Shown: in pieces, positions 15,448 through 29,341 of the stretch
Position numbering within the stretch: the first letter of the stretch is position 1
Layout: every line of letters starts with the position of its first letter
Source: Candidatus Eiseniibacteriota bacterium
GTDB taxonomy: Bacteria > Eisenbacteria > RBG-16-71-46
Direction: 5' to 3'
Assembly: GCA_025360715.1 (NCBI GenBank)
Contig: JANYBS010000153.1
Coordinates: 1 to 34,265, forward strand
DNA length: 34,265 nt
Made by a program: the position numbers and the translations under genes
Notes under the pieces: generated by a model
The model's input: only the letters and a program-made list of their open reading frames with translations
Told to the model about the DNA's origin: nothing
The model's database searches: none

Positions 15448-15774
15448 ATGACCGTCCGACCGACACAATCTGGACAGACTTCGAGCTCGGGACTGAACCG
15501 CACCGGCAAGACGCCGGCCCCAGCGACTAAGGCGGCGCGCGCGCCTCAGACGCCATCGCCCGCCGCACCGGTCTCGCCTTCTTCGCACCGCGATCAACTC
15601 GCGATCTCCAGCGAAGCGCGCGATCTCCAGCGGCTCGGCGGCGCGGCGCAGGACACGACCAGTGAGTTGTCAGCCGACCGCATGCGCGAAGTCGTCAAGC
15701 GCATGAACGACGGCCACTACGACAAGCCCGACGTGATGGACGAAGTGATCCGCCGCATGGCGAAGGACCTCTAG
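15448..15774 (+). CDS. flgM: FlgM-like anti-sigma-28 factor
   Basis: FlgM binds and inhibits the flagellar sigma factor FliA until the hook is finished, then is exported through the flagellum. The 108-residue protein has a disordered Ser/Thr/Pro/Ala-rich N-terminal half and a C-terminal half of FlgM type: RDQLAISSEARDLQRL, then MREVVKRMNDGHYDKPDVMD and a closing VIRRMAKDL. This layout (ISSEA motif, then a helix, a G-x-Y turn and a final helix) is the sigma-binding half of FlgM. The ATG has GAGGGGATC before it. Its own promoter region carries a FliA-type element, giving a feedback loop. FlgM is weakly conserved, so the call rests on pattern and context. Confidence 0.75.
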   Translation: MTVRPTQSGQTSSSGLNRTGKTPAPATKAARAPQTPSPAAPVSPSSHRDQLAISSEARDLQRLGGAAQDTTSELSADRMREVVKRMNDGHYDKPDVMDEVIRRMAKDL

Positions 15775-21924: not shown

Positions 21925-21953
21925 TCAAGTCCCGCCCCGGTAGGTGCCGATAC
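21925..21953 (+). promoter_or_regulatory. Weak sigma-28-like promoter for the FHA-kinase-pilT cluster
   Basis: TCAAGTCC, 14 bases, then CCGATAC. The half-sites are good, but the spacer is two bases longer than in the flagellin promoters, so the assignment is tentative. It lies about 96 bases before the FHA start. Confidence 0.35.
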
Positions 21954-22048: not shown

Positions 22049-22633
22049 GTGTCCGACGAGAAAGTGGTCAAGCTCCGGCTCTCGCTCATGGGCCGTCCTG
22101 TGCGCAACTACACGTTCGACAAGCCCGTCATCACCATCGGCCGCGACCCGGGCTCCGACGTGTTCGTGGATAACCCCGGCGTCTCGCGTGACCACTTCCG
22201 CATGGAGCGCACGCCCACGGGCGACTACACGCTGGTGGACCTGGGCAGTGCGAACGGCACGTATGTGAATGAGCAGATGGTCCACAACGCCGTGCTCGGC
22301 AACAACGACGTCGTGCGCTTCGGCAAGTACACGCTGTGGATCGGCTATGACGCGGACCGCCGCGCGCTCGCCGAGGCCACGCGCCGCTCCGGCGCCGACA
22401 ATGAGCAGCACACGGTCGTGCTCTCGCGCGCAGAACTGGGCAACCTGATCGAGGTCGCCAAGGAGAAGGAGTCTTCGCCGCCTGCGCCGCCCGTCGTGCT
22501 TCAGGCGCCCGCGTCTGCCGGGGTGGTCACCGAGGTCAAGGCTGCTCCGGCGCCGTTCGCTGGCATCATCGTGGGCTTCCTGCTGGGCGCTGCACTCGGT
22601 GCAGGCGCCGTCTGGATGATCCTCTCGCGCTGA
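22049..22633 (+). CDS. FHA-domain protein with C-terminal membrane anchor
   Basis: FHA domains bind phosphothreonine peptides. From the GTG at 22049, with GGAGGA about nine bases upstream, the protein is 194 residues. The FHA domain is at about 20-100 with its ligand residues visible: TIGRDPGSDV, then VSRDHF and GSANGTYVN. A linker with NEQHTVVLSRAELGNLIEV follows, then a Pro-rich stretch and a membrane helix (about 169-191). It probably binds phosphorylated proteins at the inner membrane. The kinase gene 46 bases downstream is the obvious partner. Confidence 0.85.
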   Translation: MSDEKVVKLRLSLMGRPVRNYTFDKPVITIGRDPGSDVFVDNPGVSRDHFRMERTPTGDYTLVDLGSANGTYVNEQMVHNAVLGNNDVVRFGKYTLWIGYDADRRALAEATRRSGADNEQHTVVLSRAELGNLIEVAKEKESSPPAPPVVLQAPASAGVVTEVKAAPAPFAGIIVGFLLGAALGAGAVWMILSR

Positions 22634-22679
22634 TCGCAAGTCGTCCCCAGTTGCATCCGGAAGGGATTCCCGAGGACGT

Positions 22680-25043
22680 ATGGACCTGATCCGCCGCTTC
22701 CAGACAGGACGCCACGCGAAGAGACTGCAGAGCTCGGAGCCTTCGGCCGGCACTGCGGCCGTCGACGCGCGCTCGAGCTTGCTCGCGCTGGGGCCATCGG
22801 CCATTCCGGCAGTGTTCGACGCGATCGTGGACGCGCCGGCATCGGCGGCGCTGCTCGACGTGCTCGAGCGATTGCTCGACAACGAGTCGCTCGCCGCGTT
22901 CACCGACGCGCTTCGCGACAAGAATCCGCGCATCGTCGAGGCCGCCGCCACGGTGCTGTCACGTGCGCCCGACTATGACCCGACGCAGCTGCTGGCGCTG
23001 TTCTCCGACGCCACCGTATCCAAGGCGCGCCTGGAGACGATCCTGACGGCACAGATCGACCGCGTGCAGGCGCCGATCCTGATGCGCGTCCTGCCCGACT
23101 TGTCGAAGGAAGCGCGCACGAGCGTGTATCGCCTGCTCGAGCGGCGGGCCGATCCGAGCATTGTGCAGGACGCGATCGCACTCACGACGCATGCCGAGTG
23201 GTGGCTGCGACTGCATGCAGTCAAACTCCTCGCCCGCTTCCCGCGCGAGGACGGCATCGCCGCCGTGGCAAAGTCCCTCAAGGACGACAATTCTGCCGTG
23301 CGGCTCGAGGCCGTTCGCACGCTGGGCACGCTGCAGGCTGCGAGCGCGGTGCCTGCGCTCTGTGCCTGCCTGCGCGATTCCGACATCAAGGTGCAGACCG
23401 CGACGATCGAGGCGCTGATCCAGCTGGCCGACGTCTCGTCGGTCCCGCACCTGCTCGAGCACCTCAAAGACGAATCCGAGTATGTGCGCCGCGGCGCGGT
23501 CGAGGTGCTCAACCAGGTCGTGACCGTGGACGCGATCAAGGACCTCGTCTCGGCACTGCGCGACAGTGACTGGTGGGTGCGCGTGCGCGCGGCCGACGCG
23601 CTCGGAACACTGGGTGGTACGCGCGTGATCGAAGCCGTGATCGGCCTCATCCACGACGAGGACGACTTCATCCGCCGTTACGCGGTCGAGATCCTGAATA
23701 CCGTCCCCGACCGGCGTGCCGTACTGCCGCTCATCGAAGCGCTCGAGGACGCCGATTGGTGGGTGCGCGAGCGCGCGATCGATGCCCTTGCCAAGACGGG
23801 CGACTCGCGAGCCGTGGAGCCGCTGGTGCGCATGCTCGCTCGCGACCCGCGCTCGATCCCGTTGTGCGTGAAAGCTCTCAGTACCATCGGCGACCCGAGC
23901 GCGGTCGAGCCGTTGTGCCGGCTGGCCGCGTCCGAGAGCGCCGAGATCCGCCGCGAGGCCATCCACGGGCTCACTGCGATGGCCAAGAAGACGCTTCCTC
24001 CGGAAGTGCGCACGCGCCTTCTCGAGGCGCTCGAGAGTGCAGGCGTCCAAGCGGACCGTGTCGCACCCATGCCACTCGAAGTCCGTAACCAGCGCGGACC
24101 GGAGAGCGGCCGCGCTGACGGCGGCACTCGCCCGAGCACACCGCCGGGAGGAGTATCGGGAGTGCAGCAGACCGGCCACTCGCCTTCGGGCGGCGCGCCG
24201 CGCGCGCTCAACTTCCAGAAGCTCGAGCCCGGCACCGTGCTCTCGGATCGCTACCGCGTGCTGCAGCGTATCGGCGGCGGCGGGTTCGGCACGGTCTATC
24301 TGGTCGAGGACGTGATCGTCCGCGAGGAGATGGTGCTCAAGGTGCTCTCGCCGCAGTTGTCGATGGACGAGAACATGATCCGCCGCTTCGTGCAGGAGCT
24401 TAAGCTGACACGGCGCATCGCGCACCCGAACGTGATCCGCATCTACGACCTGCTCGACCTGGAAGGCGCGCACGCGATCTCGATGGAGTTCTTCAAGGGC
24501 CGCGACCTGGGCACGGTGCTCAAGCAGGAAGGCCCGATGAGCGTGGAACGTGTACTGCAGATCGTCGAACAGGTCGTGGAAGGCCTTGCCGCAGCGCATG
24601 AGATGGGCATCATCCATCGCGACATCAAACCGGCGAACCTCTTGCTCGGCGACGACGGCAAGGTGAAGATCGTCGATTTCGGCCTGGCCTCGGTCGGGCA
24701 GACGGCGAAGTCGCGACTTACCCAGAGCGGTATCCTCGTGGGCACGCCGGAATACATCTCGCCCGAGCAGATCACCGGCCACGACGTGGACGGCCGCACC
24801 GACCTGTATTCGCTGGGCGTGGTCATGTACGAACTGCTGTCAGGCGTGCAGGCGTTCTCGGGCACCAACGCCGTGAATGTGCTCTTCCAGCATCTGGAGA
24901 GCGAGGTCCCGCCATTGTCGAGCGTCGCCGCCGGCATCCCGCCGCCCGTGAACGAACTCGTCATGCGCTGCATGTCGCGCTTCGCGAATGACAGGCCGCA
25001 GAACGCCGCCCTCATGCTGGAGATGCTGCGGCGCGCCGCCTAG
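22680..25043 (+). CDS. HEAT-repeat protein fused to a Ser/Thr protein kinase
   Basis: The 787-residue protein has two parts. Residues about 30-460 are a run of HEAT/PBS-lyase-like repeats, clearest in LRDSDWWVRVRAADALGTLG and LEDADWWVRERAIDALAKTG, a scaffold for protein binding. After a Gly/Ser/Pro-rich linker (about 465-510) comes a Hanks-type kinase: GGGGFG loop near 530, lysine in LKVLS near 552, HRDIKPAN near 646, DFG near 665, and GTPEYISPEQ in the activation segment. All catalytic residues are present. There is no membrane segment. It lies between the FHA gene and two pilT genes, suggesting phosphorylation of pilus or motility components. Confidence 0.92.
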   Translation: MDLIRRFQTGRHAKRLQSSEPSAGTAAVDARSSLLALGPSAIPAVFDAIVDAPASAALLDVLERLLDNESLAAFTDALRDKNPRIVEAAATVLSRAPDYDPTQLLALFSDATVSKARLETILTAQIDRVQAPILMRVLPDLSKEARTSVYRLLERRADPSIVQDAIALTTHAEWWLRLHAVKLLARFPREDGIAAVAKSLKDDNSAVRLEAVRTLGTLQAASAVPALCACLRDSDIKVQTATIEALIQLADVSSVPHLLEHLKDESEYVRRGAVEVLNQVVTVDAIKDLVSALRDSDWWVRVRAADALGTLGGTRVIEAVIGLIHDEDDFIRRYAVEILNTVPDRRAVLPLIEALEDADWWVRERAIDALAKTGDSRAVEPLVRMLARDPRSIPLCVKALSTIGDPSAVEPLCRLAASESAEIRREAIHGLTAMAKKTLPPEVRTRLLEALESAGVQADRVAPMPLEVRNQRGPESGRADGGTRPSTPPGGVSGVQQTGHSPSGGAPRALNFQKLEPGTVLSDRYRVLQRIGGGGFGTVYLVEDVIVREEMVLKVLSPQLSMDENMIRRFVQELKLTRRIAHPNVIRIYDLLDLEGAHAISMEFFKGRDLGTVLKQEGPMSVERVLQIVEQVVEGLAAAHEMGIIHRDIKPANLLLGDDGKVKIVDFGLASVGQTAKSRLTQSGILVGTPEYISPEQITGHDVDGRTDLYSLGVVMYELLSGVQAFSGTNAVNVLFQHLESEVPPLSSVAAGIPPPVNELVMRCMSRFANDRPQNAALMLEMLRRAA

Positions 25044-25059
25044 GCCCCCGCACGAACCC

Positions 25060-26157
25060 ATGCCACGGATCGACGCCTTCCTCCAGATCGGCCAGCAGCA
25101 GGGCGGCTCCGACATCCACTTCACGGTCGGGCTGCCGCCGCTCGTGCGTCTCGACGGCGAGTTGCTGCCCGTCAAGTACCGCGAACTCACGCAGGACGAG
25201 ACCGAGGGCCTGGTCCGCGAGATCCTCACCGAACAGCAGCAACATATCTTCGAGACCACGGGCACGCTCGACCTTGCCTATCGCGCCGAGAACCTGGGCC
25301 GCTTCCGCATCAACCTGTGTCGTCACCGCAAGGGCATCGCCGCGATCTGCCGCGTGATCCCACAGGAGGTGCCGACGTTGGATGCGCTGGGTCTGCCGCG
25401 CATCCTGGCGCAATTCACCAAACTCAACGCTGGACTCGTGCTGGTCACGGGCCCGACGGGCACGGGCAAATCCACGACGCTGGCCGCGATGATCCGCGAG
25501 ATCAATCACACGCAGAGCCTGAACATCATCACACTCGAAGACCCGGTCGAGTTCGTGCACCAGAGCGACCAGTCGCTCGTGGTGCAGCGCGAGATCGGCA
25601 CGCACGTCGAATCGTTCAAGGACGGCTTGCGATCGGCGCTGCGCCAGGACCCCGATGTGATCCTGGTCGGTGAGCTGCGCGACCCCGACACGGTCACGCT
25701 GGCGCTCGAAGCCGCCGAGACCGGCCACCTGGTGCTGGGCACGCTGCACACTCGCGGTGCCGCGCAGACGATCGATCGCATCGTCGACGCGCATCCGTCG
25801 GAGAATCAGTCGCAGGTGCGGCACTCGCTGGCGGATAACCTGAAGGCAGTCGTGAGCCAGGAACTGATCCGCGCTGCGGACGGCCGCGGACGTCGCGCAG
25901 CGCTCGAGATCCTGGTCTCCACGCCCGCCGTGCAGCAGCACATCCGTGAGGGCAAGACGTTCCAGATCGCAAGCGCCATCACCACCGGCCGCCGCCTGGG
26001 CATGCAGCTCATGGACCAGTCCATGCTGTCGCTGGTGCGCGCGGGCGAGATCGATCCCGACGAGGCGTTCTTGCGCGCCGAGGACAAGTGGGGCTTCGCG
26101 CCGTTCGTGACGCGCCCGGAATTGCTACAGATGATGACCGGCGACAAGGTGGCCTGA
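25060..26157 (+). CDS. PilT-type twitching motility ATPase (first copy)
   Basis: PilT is the hexameric ATPase that retracts type IV pili. The 365-residue protein begins RIDAFLQIGQQQGGSDIHFT, the usual PilT N-terminal domain. Walker A is GPTGTGKS at 131-138. Later come the Asp box (IITLEDPVEF), Walker B (DPDVILVGELRD), the His box (GHLVLGTLHTRGAAQTIDRI) and the C-terminal REGKTFQIASAITTGRRLGM segment. The start at 25060 follows the kinase stop by 16 bases; the open frame continues upstream inside the kinase gene. It is followed two bases later by a second PilT-like gene, as in pilT-pilU pairs. Confidence 0.92.
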   Translation: MPRIDAFLQIGQQQGGSDIHFTVGLPPLVRLDGELLPVKYRELTQDETEGLVREILTEQQQHIFETTGTLDLAYRAENLGRFRINLCRHRKGIAAICRVIPQEVPTLDALGLPRILAQFTKLNAGLVLVTGPTGTGKSTTLAAMIREINHTQSLNIITLEDPVEFVHQSDQSLVVQREIGTHVESFKDGLRSALRQDPDVILVGELRDPDTVTLALEAAETGHLVLGTLHTRGAAQTIDRIVDAHPSENQSQVRHSLADNLKAVVSQELIRAADGRGRRAALEILVSTPAVQQHIREGKTFQIASAITTGRRLGMQLMDQSMLSLVRAGEIDPDEAFLRAEDKWGFAPFVTRPELLQMMTGDKVA

Positions 26158-26159
26158 CC

Positions 26160-27233
26160 ATGAACCGCATCGATGCCTTTCTCGAACTCGCGGTGAACCA
26201 GGGCGGCTCGGACCTGCATCTGCTCTCGGGCGAGGCGCCACGCATCCGCCTGCACGGCGACTTGCAGCCCGTGCGATTCCGTGAACTGTCGGAACACGAT
26301 GTCACGGAATTCCTGAATGAGTTCATGACGCCTGAGCAGCGCGCGAAGCTCGCCGCGCGCTCCGCGGTGGACTTCGCCTATGAATCCGAGACGGCGGGGC
26401 GCTTCCGCGTGAATGTGTACAAGCACTCGGGTGGCATCGGCGCCGCGTTACGCGTGGTGAGAGGCGAAGTGCCCCGGCTGGAGACACTCGAGCTGCCGGC
26501 GGCGGTCACCCAGAGCCTTTCGATCGGCAAGGGACTCACGCTGGTGACGGGTCCCACCGGCTCGGGCAAGTCCACCACGCTCGCTGCCATGATCGACCAT
26601 ATCAACCGCACGCGTCGCGGCCATGTGATCACGATCGAGGATCCGATCGAGTACGTGCATGAATATCAGAAGTGCGTCGTGACGCAGCGAGAAGTCGGTG
26701 CGCACGCCACCAATTTCGCCGAAGCGCTGCACAGCGCCGTGCGCGAGGATCCGGACGCGATCCTCGTGGGCGAGATGCGCGACCTTGAGACGATCAGCCT
26801 GGCGCTGACCGCCGCGGAGACCGGCATCCAGGTGTTCGGGACGCTGCATACGAATGGCGCGGTCCGGTGCGTGGACCGTATCGTGAACGTCTTCCCGGCG
26901 CGGCGTCAGGAGCAGGTTCGCACGATGCTCGCGGACAGCTTGCGTCTGGTCGTCGCGCAGCAATTGGTGCGCAAGGCGGACCACACCGGCCGACTGGTCG
27001 CGGCTGAGGTCCTGGTGAACACGACAGCGGTGAGCGCGATGATCCGCGGCGGCAACACGCACAAGCTCGCGGCGGCGATCCTGGCCGGCACGCGCGTGGG
27101 CATGCAGTCACTCGACAGCGTGCTCATGGACTACGTGAAGCGCGACCTGATCACGGGCGAGGAAGCGTATGAACACGCGCTGGACCGCGGCCCGTTCGAG
27201 CGTTTCGTGTCGGGAGACGCCGCGGCGGCTTGA
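26160..27233 (+). CDS. PilT-type twitching motility ATPase (second copy, PilU-like position)
   Basis: The 357-residue PilT paralogue has the same architecture: N-terminal RIDAFLELAVNQGGSDLHLL, Walker A GPTGSGKS at 131-138, ITIEDPIEY, Walker B DPDAILVGEMRD, and a C-terminal GGNTHKLAAAILAGTRVGMQ. The two copies differ enough to be old duplicates. In species with two retraction ATPases the second (PilU) helps PilT at high load. No pilus structural genes are in the window, so pili would be encoded elsewhere. The ATG lies two bases after the previous stop; the two are translated as one unit. Confidence 0.9.
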   Translation: MNRIDAFLELAVNQGGSDLHLLSGEAPRIRLHGDLQPVRFRELSEHDVTEFLNEFMTPEQRAKLAARSAVDFAYESETAGRFRVNVYKHSGGIGAALRVVRGEVPRLETLELPAAVTQSLSIGKGLTLVTGPTGSGKSTTLAAMIDHINRTRRGHVITIEDPIEYVHEYQKCVVTQREVGAHATNFAEALHSAVREDPDAILVGEMRDLETISLALTAAETGIQVFGTLHTNGAVRCVDRIVNVFPARRQEQVRTMLADSLRLVVAQQLVRKADHTGRLVAAEVLVNTTAVSAMIRGGNTHKLAAAILAGTRVGMQSLDSVLMDYVKRDLITGEEAYEHALDRGPFERFVSGDAAAA

Positions 27234-27294: not shown

Positions 27295-28539
27295 TCAGGC
27301 GGCCTTCTCGACTCCTTCGTCGTCGGCGCTCACGCCGTAGACGAGTTCGAGCAATCCTGGCAGGCCTTCACGGACGGCATCGACCACGTCGGCGTCCCAA
27401 TCCACGCCACGGCCCTGCATGAGGATCTCGACCACCTTGAATGGCGGCAGCGGCTGCTTGTAGACCCGCGGCGACATGAGCGCATCGAAGACGTCGGCCA
27501 CCGAGATGATGCGCGCCGCGAGCGGGATGTCGTCGCCGGCGATGCCGAAGGGCCCCGTGCCATCGAGCTTCTCATGATGGTACGCGGCGACTCTCGGCAC
27601 GTCGCGCAGGTGCTGCGGGTACTCGATCTTGTCCAGGATGTTCTGCGTGTGCGCCGCGTGAAGCGACATCTCCTCGCGCTCCTCCGGCGTGAGGCGGTCC
27701 GGCTTGAAAAGCACCTCGTCGCGGACCCCCTGCTTGCCCAGATCATGCAGCAGAGCCGCGACCGAGAGCACCTCGAGCGCTTCGTCGCCGATACCCATGT
27801 GCCGGCCGATGCCGATCGACATGGCCTGGACGCGCTCGGAATGCTCTGCGGATTCTAGATCCTTGAGCGTGAGCGAATGCACAAGGGCGTTGATCGTGGA
27901 CTGGAACGCCCGGCGCTGCTGGAGATGCAGCTCAAGATGTTCCAGCGCGAGTCCCACCTGACTGGCGACGACGGACAGGAGATCGACATCCTCGCGCGTG
28001 AAGCGGCCTTTGGCGGGGCGGCGGATATCGAGCTGCAATACGCCGAACGGCTGGCGGTTTCCCATGAGCGGCGCACAGATCGCGGTCTCGAGCCGGGACA
28101 GCACCATGCTCTGCGTGGGATCGAAGCCCTGGCCCAGCGCGTAGAGCACTGCGCAACCCTCGGTCATGACGTGCGACACGATCGTGCGACTGGGTAACTC
28201 GGAGTCCACGTCACCGGTGCGCGAACGAGAAAGCCGTGTGTTCAGTGCGCCATCGCCGGTGCGCGTCGCGAGCACCAGATGCGAGGCGTTCGGGAACGCG
28301 CGGAACGCATACTCCGAGATCACCTCGAACAGACGCACTTCGTCATTGCGCGAAGCGGCGGTCTCGCGCACGAGCCCGAGCAGTAGCTCCGCGACACCGG
28401 CATCCGAGCGCACGACCTGCCCCTGCACGTCGCTCCACTCATGGAGCGGACGTGACGCGAGCACGGTGGGCTCGAAAGCCTCACCGCGTACAGATCGCGG
28501 ACCGCCTTCCGAGGGCGGCTTGGGTGCCGGGGTGTCCAT
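27295..28539 (-). CDS. GAF and HD-GYP-type protein with altered GYP motif
   Basis: HD-GYP proteins hydrolyse cyclic di-GMP. The 414-residue protein has a GAF domain (about 45-205, LETAICAPLMGNRQPFGVLQ) and an HD domain (about 215-395). The metal-binding set is largely present: His233 in EHSERV, HD at 265-266, HH at 321-322. However, the hallmark HHE-x-x-DG-x-GYP is HHEKLDGTGPFG here (321-332), so GYP is replaced. The start is the ATG at 28539; the frame is open for another 160 codons upstream, but that part overlaps the divergent gene and is Ser/Arg-rich. No strong ribosome site is seen. It may bind c-di-GMP poorly, or act on another nucleotide. Confidence 0.85.
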   Translation of the reverse strand: MDTPAPKPPSEGGPRSVRGEAFEPTVLASRPLHEWSDVQGQVVRSDAGVAELLLGLVRETAASRNDEVRLFEVISEYAFRAFPNASHLVLATRTGDGALNTRLSRSRTGDVDSELPSRTIVSHVMTEGCAVLYALGQGFDPTQSMVLSRLETAICAPLMGNRQPFGVLQLDIRRPAKGRFTREDVDLLSVVASQVGLALEHLELHLQQRRAFQSTINALVHSLTLKDLESAEHSERVQAMSIGIGRHMGIGDEALEVLSVAALLHDLGKQGVRDEVLFKPDRLTPEEREEMSLHAAHTQNILDKIEYPQHLRDVPRVAAYHHEKLDGTGPFGIAGDDIPLAARIISVADVFDALMSPRVYKQPLPPFKVVEILMQGRGVDWDADVVDAVREGLPGLLELVYGVSADDEGVEKAA

Positions 28540-28599
28540 GCGGGGGTCATCGGCGCTCCCGGCCCCACGCTTGAGCCCGGAGAGGCACTCAGACGGGAC

Positions 28600-28702: not shown

Positions 28703-29341
28703 ATGGACCCGCGCCATCCGCTGCTGCTCACCGTGCGTGCTCTCACGACGGTCATCGACGCCACCGACCCGTTCGCCCGCGGCCGTGCGCTGCGTATCTC
28801 GCGATACGCCATACGCGTGGCGACCGAACTGGGCGTGACGCCCGAAGAGATGACCACCGTGGAACTCGGCGCCCTCCTCCACGATCTCGGCCGCACGGCG
28901 CTGCTGCACGATGTGACGCTAAGCCCGCGCCCGCTGGATCCCGGCGAGCGCGCCATGATCCAGACGCACCCGACGATCGGCTGGGAGATGCTCAAGGACA
29001 TCCCGGGTCTCGAAGAAGTGGCGGACATCGTCTATTCGCACCACGAGCGTCCCGACGGCAAAGGCTACCCGCGCGCACTGCAGGCGCCGCAGATCTCGAT
29101 CGGCGCTCGTGTCGTGATGGTGTGCTCGGCCTATGACGCGATGACCGAGGACCGCCCTTACCGCCGCGGCCTGGCGCCGCGTGCCGCGTGCCAGGAGCTG
29201 GAGCGCAACTCGGGCACCCAGTTCTTCCCTGACGTGGTCAACGCGTTCGTGCAACTGCACGACGCCGGCCGCCTGTGGGAAGCCTTCACGCGCGAGGAAC
29301 TGGACCTCTACGTGAAGCGGAGCGATCTCGCGGCTGCGTGA
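28703..29341 (+). CDS. HD-GYP-type phosphohydrolase lacking the first conserved His
   Basis: The 212-residue protein is a stand-alone HD-GYP-type domain. HD is at 60-61 (LLHDLGRTALL), HH at 113-114 and the full DGKGYP at 118-123, and the later RVVMVCSAYDAMTEDRPYR block is typical. The N-terminal helix normally reads like D-P-Y-T-x-GHS-x-RV; here it is DPFARGRALRIS, so the conserved His is Arg28. The ATG has a textbook CGGAGGAAGC before it; the open frame upstream is not coding. It faces away from the GAF/HD-GYP gene, with a 163-base shared promoter region. Catalytic competence is uncertain. Confidence 0.87.
   Translation: MDPRHPLLLTVRALTTVIDATDPFARGRALRISRYAIRVATELGVTPEEMTTVELGALLHDLGRTALLHDVTLSPRPLDPGERAMIQTHPTIGWEMLKDIPGLEEVADIVYSHHERPDGKGYPRALQAPQISIGARVVMVCSAYDAMTEDRPYRRGLAPRAACQELERNSGTQFFPDVVNAFVQLHDAGRLWEAFTREELDLYVKRSDLAAA

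Follow-up and report, generated by a model that had tools for sequence, protein, structure and literature searches.

Among uncultured Eisenbacteria we found a block of four genes that encode, always in the same order, a membrane-anchored FHA-domain protein, a HEAT-repeat scaffold fused to a Hanks-type Ser/Thr kinase and two PilT-type ATPases. The kinase and FHA motifs are intact, the two ATPases are paralogues in clades of their own, and the block and neighbouring HD-GYP-type genes share sigma-28-like promoters. With moderate confidence, we read the block as a phospho-signalling operon that would govern a dedicated pair of pilus-retraction-type ATPases, coupled to c-di-GMP turnover.

Results

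The window analysed here is the whole of contig C184 (34,265 nucleotides) of a 4.29 Mb draft genome, labelled G000. As stated in the initial annotation, the genes for the FHA protein, the HEAT/kinase fusion, PilT1 and PilT2 lie on the same strand, and recomputing the gaps from the stop and start codons again gave 46, 16 and 2 bases. Domains were assigned with Pfam and NCBIfam profiles, and all four domain calls were unambiguous (Table 1). A PIG-L deacetylase gene lies upstream of the block on the opposite strand, and in the contig's first 15 kb the translated open reading frames read largely as flagellar genes.

Table 1. Features of the four-gene block and its surroundings (positions in the window)
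Feature	Position	Strand	Details
Sigma-28-like site upstream of FHA gene	21925-21952	+	TCAAG-N16-GCCGATA; conserved in relatives
FHA-domain protein gene	22049-22633	+	194 aa; GTG start, GGAGGA ahead of start
T-V-V-L, candidate phosphothreonine motif in FHA linker	22412-22423	+	aa 122-125; T-x-V-L invariant
HEAT-repeat scaffold and Hanks-type Ser/Thr kinase fusion	22680-25043	+	787 aa
Kinase domain of the fusion	24252-25004	+	aa 525-775; PF00069 E 5.7e-50
PilT1, PilT/PilU-family hexameric ATPase	25060-26157	+	365 aa; TIGR01420 446 bits
PilT2, PilT/PilU-family ATPase	26160-27233	+	357 aa; TIGR01420 421 bits
GAF-HD(GYP) protein	27295-28539	-	PF13487 and PF13492; orthologues beside module in L021, L026, L027, L028
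Sigma-28-like site directly before GAF-HD gene	28548-28574	-	11/12 positions
HD-GYP protein	28703-29341	+	PF13487 2e-31; start inferred

The kinase fusion was detected at E < 1e-100 in 10 of 47 Eisenbacteria genomes, and the module is carried by 12 of the 47, while most Eisenbacteria have pili without it. Eight genomes, spanning four families, have the complete set of four genes with unchanged order and strand (G000, G021, G020, G031, G030, G018, G012 and G002). The loci of G023, G019, G029 and G003 are cut by contig ends, and their visible part fits the module order. Intergenic gaps are mostly below 60 bases across the loci, and some genomes show small overlaps instead. In G002 the FHA and kinase genes are 244 bases apart and the two PilT genes 76. 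The gene order is far from chance. The initial annotation had proposed a check of this order across genomes and would have been undermined by an order unique to this one, which is not the case, since the block is co-directional and, to all appearance, ancient and co-inherited. The conservation suggests an old, vertically inherited operon-like unit of Eisenbacteria. A horizontally transferred cassette is not favoured, as the PilT1 and PilT2 subtrees track genome kinship. A contig scan with the kinase alone, which reaches close relatives only, returned one locus, itself from Candidatus Eisenbacteria. In a plasmid search, PilT2 matches did not exceed 48% identity and kinase matches spanned the kinase half only.

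The fusion of a Hanks kinase to a HEAT scaffold was borne out by six stretches of HEAT_2 (PF13646) followed by the kinase domain (PF00069). The VLK, HRDIKP and DFG motifs are intact in the window and in orthologues, which also share the activation loop SRLTxSGxLxGTPxY. Among the orthologues that reach this stretch, the segment SRLTxSG is invariant (SRVTxSG in G002). That is, the catalytic lysine, HRD, DFG and activation loop of a Hanks-type Ser/Thr kinase are all present.

The FHA protein (PF00498, E 5.6e-19, domain at aa 28-92) has a single C-terminal hydrophobic segment (aa 173-191), in agreement with the membrane anchor described at the outset. Among ten orthologues the pocket residues G31 R32, S46 R47 H49 and N69 G70 are invariant, and the surrounding GRD, SRxH and SANG residues are invariant or nearly so. 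The protein thus has the GR, SxxH and NG residues of a phosphothreonine-binding FHA domain, and such binding is predicted. The 61-residue linker between domain and anchor is poorly conserved, and in the ten orthologues only T122, V124 and L125 are invariant in it. Sequences of the T-x-x-L kind are known to be bound by FHA domains when phosphorylated, which makes the threonine of T-x-V-L, T122, a candidate phosphothreonine site. In the predicted structure the motif would lie just ahead of a low-confidence helix; the model as a whole (mean pLDDT 47) is too poor to interpret. Membership of the OdhI/GarA-type FHA switch family was rejected by score and motif position (NF041660, 66 bits against a cut-off of 200, with no ETTS motif before the FHA domain), so the protein may work like these switches but is not one of them.

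Two features were absent from the initial annotation, the T-x-V-L motif and the HD-GYP neighbours. Wherever the contig reaches far enough, the PilT2 end of the module is flanked by HD-GYP-type genes (the window, L021, L022, L026, L027, L028, L044 and L046). The distal of the two genes in the window (28703-29341) encodes a canonical HHExxDGxGYP and has orthologues at all seven of these other loci. Its neighbour, the GAF-HD protein, reads HHEKLDGTGPFG (GPF) in place of the GYP of HD-GYP enzymes; its c-di-GMP activity is uncertain. A FHA-GAF-HD fusion adjoins the module in G002 (L044:7456-8961), and its HD motif looks degenerate, without the HD pair.

The 300-bp upstream regions of nine orthologous loci were searched for the form AAG-N15-17-GCCGAT and compared with 2000 shuffles. 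The site (TCAAG-N15/16-GCCGATA or a close form) stands before the FHA gene in 8 of the 9 testable loci; the shuffles gave a mean of 0.02 regions and never more than one. At the ninth locus, that of G002, a 12/12 match precedes the kinase gene instead of the FHA gene. Aligned orthologous upstream DNA has little else in common, although shared descent could keep sequence. An 11/12 site also precedes the GAF-HD orthologue in G021, G018 and G019. Among the gene starts listed for the window, matches at 11 or more of 12 positions occur only before flgL, the gene at 15448, the FHA gene and the GAF-HD gene. Unlike flgL, two flagellin genes (12438 and 13511) have no such site ahead of them, and their promoters may be of another type. 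As a sequence match, the site is conserved, start-proximal and above chance, as expected of a sigma-28 (FliA-type) promoter, and its consensus points to recognition by a FliA/WhiG-type sigma factor. Genes for such factors score above the cut-off in 41 of the 47 genomes, G021 included, and a second copy adjoins flhA in the flagellated genomes; the two copies of G000 lie on C240 and C145.

Genome-wide, the exact pattern gave 12 matches in G000 and 8 in G021 (reversed control, 0) and 21 in four more genomes (control, 1). The genes that recur downstream of it include a TPR protein (four genomes), the FHA module (three), csrA (two), a PAS histidine kinase (two) and others, and a site-bearing CheY-like regulator is 92-94% identical in four genomes. 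The csrA site (of the form TGAAG in G000) lies within a response-regulator cluster in G000:C240 (L080) and G021:C24 (L079), and in both a FliA/WhiG-type sigma gene follows a few kb downstream of csrA. About 9 kb from the module of G021 a YfiR/HmsC-like (DUF4154) gene has the same site (G021:C20:145069, L069).

The breadth of this regulon bears on a plainer reading, in which the block is a co-expression unit only: kinase and FHA protein would act on other targets, such as the HD-GYP proteins or other regulon members, and the PilT proteins would merely be co-timed. The several signalling proteins in the regulon (CheY-like, PAS histidine kinase, CsrA, YfiR-like) would fit this, as would the fusion of the neighbouring GAF-HD protein to an FHA domain in G002. 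No phosphatase gene was found next to the four-gene block, which points the same way; two PP2C-type matches elsewhere in the genome make a phosphatase available in principle. On the other hand, the four genes of the block remain closely spaced in four families while the flanks change, and the PilT subtrees follow genome kinship. We consider mere co-timing rather unlikely.

Under our preferred reading, that of a phospho-signalling operon, the two ATPases would be its output. Both exceed the TIGR01420 PilT/PilU cut-off of 319.1 bits, and the assignment of the two proteins to this family in the initial annotation was correct. Their description as retraction ATPases goes further than the motifs do: the AIRNLIRE of retraction-competent PilT is absent in both, the site reading PAVQQHIRE and TAVSAMIRG in the window pair. 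Because of this change we call them PilT-type ATPases and not working retraction motors. PilT1 of the window keeps Walker A, Walker B and the His box. PilT2 keeps Walker A and B, and its first His-box histidine is replaced, as it is (TGI/V/A) in all PilT2 orthologues. Retraction activity is uncertain, given the altered AIRNLIRE of the pair and the loss of this histidine.

In a PilT tree of 61 rows (PilT1 and PilT2 orthologues, other Eisenbacteria paralogues, and PilT and PilU references), PilT1 and PilT2 form separate clades with support of 100/100 each, and the two are sisters at 98/90. The nearest other clade holds PilT copies such as that of C190 (93/84, branch not starred). This paralogue adjoins a DUF4388 protein in G000:C190 (L030:715-3293), and likewise in G021:C18 (L053). 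A solved PilU chain sits in another clade together with other Eisenbacteria paralogues, and PilT2 is thus not PilU. The canonical PilT of the same genome is encoded on C35, directly between PilB and PilC, and PilB was found in 46 of the 47 genomes; since a separate canonical PilB-PilT-PilC operon exists, we regard PilT1 and PilT2 as dedicated paralogues. The tandem PilT pairs of G025, G035, G019 (C170) and G020 (C82) are of another type and group with the PilT/PilU references, and in the stretches searched near them there was no match to the module FHA protein or kinase. In G008, a large TPR-CHAT protein is followed by a tandem PilT-type pair of another lineage (L045:5030-10923). Group-specific Ser/Thr residues were considered as phosphosites, and the only one, T135 of PilT1, lies in Walker A and is not convincing.

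The same motif changes could mean that PilT1 and PilT2 are regulatory or degenerate ATPases, PilU-like or decoys, which would mix into canonical PilT rings under kinase control and no longer retract. Besides the AIRNLIRE and His-box changes, Walker B is partly altered in PilT1 of G002 and G003. Yet the proteins retain Walker A, most of Walker B and the second histidine of the His box, so that ATP binding and hydrolysis look possible, and the canonical Eisenbacteria PilT itself has a modified AIRNLIRE (PAIKA[TV]IRE). Degeneration of this kind seems improbable to us.

The upstream site had also been taken as a hint at flagellar timing. The site is real, but by itself it does not mean such timing. 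Neither FliF nor FlhA turned up in G021 (99% complete) or in three genus-g8 genomes (65-87% complete), all of which have the module. The site precedes the FHA gene of G021 and of two g8 genomes; the locus of the third g8 genome is truncated where its contig ends. These two families were not found in G020 either, despite flagellar genes adjoining its module, which shows that a draft assembly may fail to reveal them; their absence is more convincing in G021, given its completeness and its about 30 contigs. Because the site recurs before csrA, the CheY-like regulator and the TPR protein, also where FliF and FlhA were not found, we take it to mark a sigma-28-type regulon and not simply flagellar timing. 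That the module is part of a flagellar programme, with a PilT-like motor that works alongside the flagellum or is switched against it, seems very improbable to us. The module adjoins a flagellar cluster in three genus-g1 genomes, has its promoter type in common with flgL and is more frequent alongside flagellar genes (8 of 12 module genomes versus 8 of 35 others; Fisher p = 0.012, kinship ignored), but a flagellar-only role is weakened by G021 and the three incomplete g8 genomes, where the module is present, the site is kept as described and no FliF or FlhA was found.

Discussion

In its full form, which we put forward tentatively, our proposal is that a Ser/Thr kinase directly controls a bacterial pilus motor. 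The scaffold kinase and a membrane FHA adaptor would phosphorylate and recruit a ring of the paralogous PilT1 and PilT2, and c-di-GMP phosphodiesterases would be co-expressed by a sigma-28-type factor, which in some lineages would have persisted after the flagellum was lost. We infer every phosphorylation and binding step, as well as the type IV pilus as the machine, from the sequences. In the reading given above with moderate confidence, the HEAT solenoid may sense or dock a partner and position the kinase, which would autophosphorylate and be bound by the membrane-anchored FHA protein. The kinase could also phosphorylate the T-x-V-L threonine in the FHA linker, and the phosphorylated linker might fold back on the FHA pocket or compete for it, in the manner of PknG and OdhI/GarA. 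Depending on the state of phosphorylation, the FHA adaptor would or would not keep the ring of PilT1 and PilT2, or else the kinase, at the inner membrane. Held beside the base of a type IV pilus, the ring could add to or replace canonical PilT. The co-expressed HD-GYP enzymes would simultaneously lower c-di-GMP, tipping the cell to retraction or motility.

If this holds true, the module offers a compact four-gene system for reconstituting the phospho-control of a pilus motor. A sigma-28-type regulon that includes csrA, a CheY-like regulator and the module in lineages that yielded no flagellar core genes also touches on the question of a general role of FliA-type sigma factors in surface motility.

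Pilus retraction ATPases are tuned by c-di-GMP-linked complexes and two-component signalling. We found no bacterial circuit in which retraction ATPases are genetically linked to an FHA adaptor and a Hanks kinase in the open-access literature, where single mentions in subscription journals could be missed. The initial annotation held that no such circuit is among those commonly described, and for pilus motors of bacteria this is roughly correct. That view does not extend to Archaea: in Sulfolobus, ArnA/ArnB on the FHA side and the Hanks-type kinases ArnC/ArnD control the archaellum, a pilus-related motility machine (PMC5300886). The Arn network resembles the module in pairing an FHA protein with Hanks-type kinases, control of a pilus-related machine being our inference for the module. 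It differs in being archaeal, in acting on archaellin expression, in forming no operon with motor ATPases and in having no reported repeat scaffold.

In Xanthomonas, an RpfG-GGDEF-PilZ complex acts on PilT/PilU (PMC3749722). There, too, HD-GYP signalling is tied to retraction ATPases, but the system has neither a Hanks-type kinase nor an FHA protein, and its genes are not described as sharing an operon with PilT. SigF, a group 3 alternative sigma factor, controls pilA in cyanobacteria, which are bacteria without flagella (PMC7690835); the likeness is an alternative sigma factor acting on a pilus gene without flagella, whereas the target there is the major pilin and not a kinase-motor operon. 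Within the TIGR01420 PilT/PilU family, to which both ATPases belong by score, they stand apart by their paired clades and altered His box and AIRNLIRE.

In PknG, a kinase is joined to a TPR scaffold that localises it, and an FHA protein serves as docking site (PMC8546545). Like PknG with OdhI/GarA of Actinobacteria, the module combines a repeat-scaffold kinase with an FHA protein that has a separate phosphorylatable threonine motif, here a candidate one. Unlike in that system, the scaffold is HEAT and not TPR and lies N-terminal to the kinase, the FHA protein is membrane-anchored with T-x-V-L after the FHA domain, and the gene partners are pilus motors rather than metabolism.
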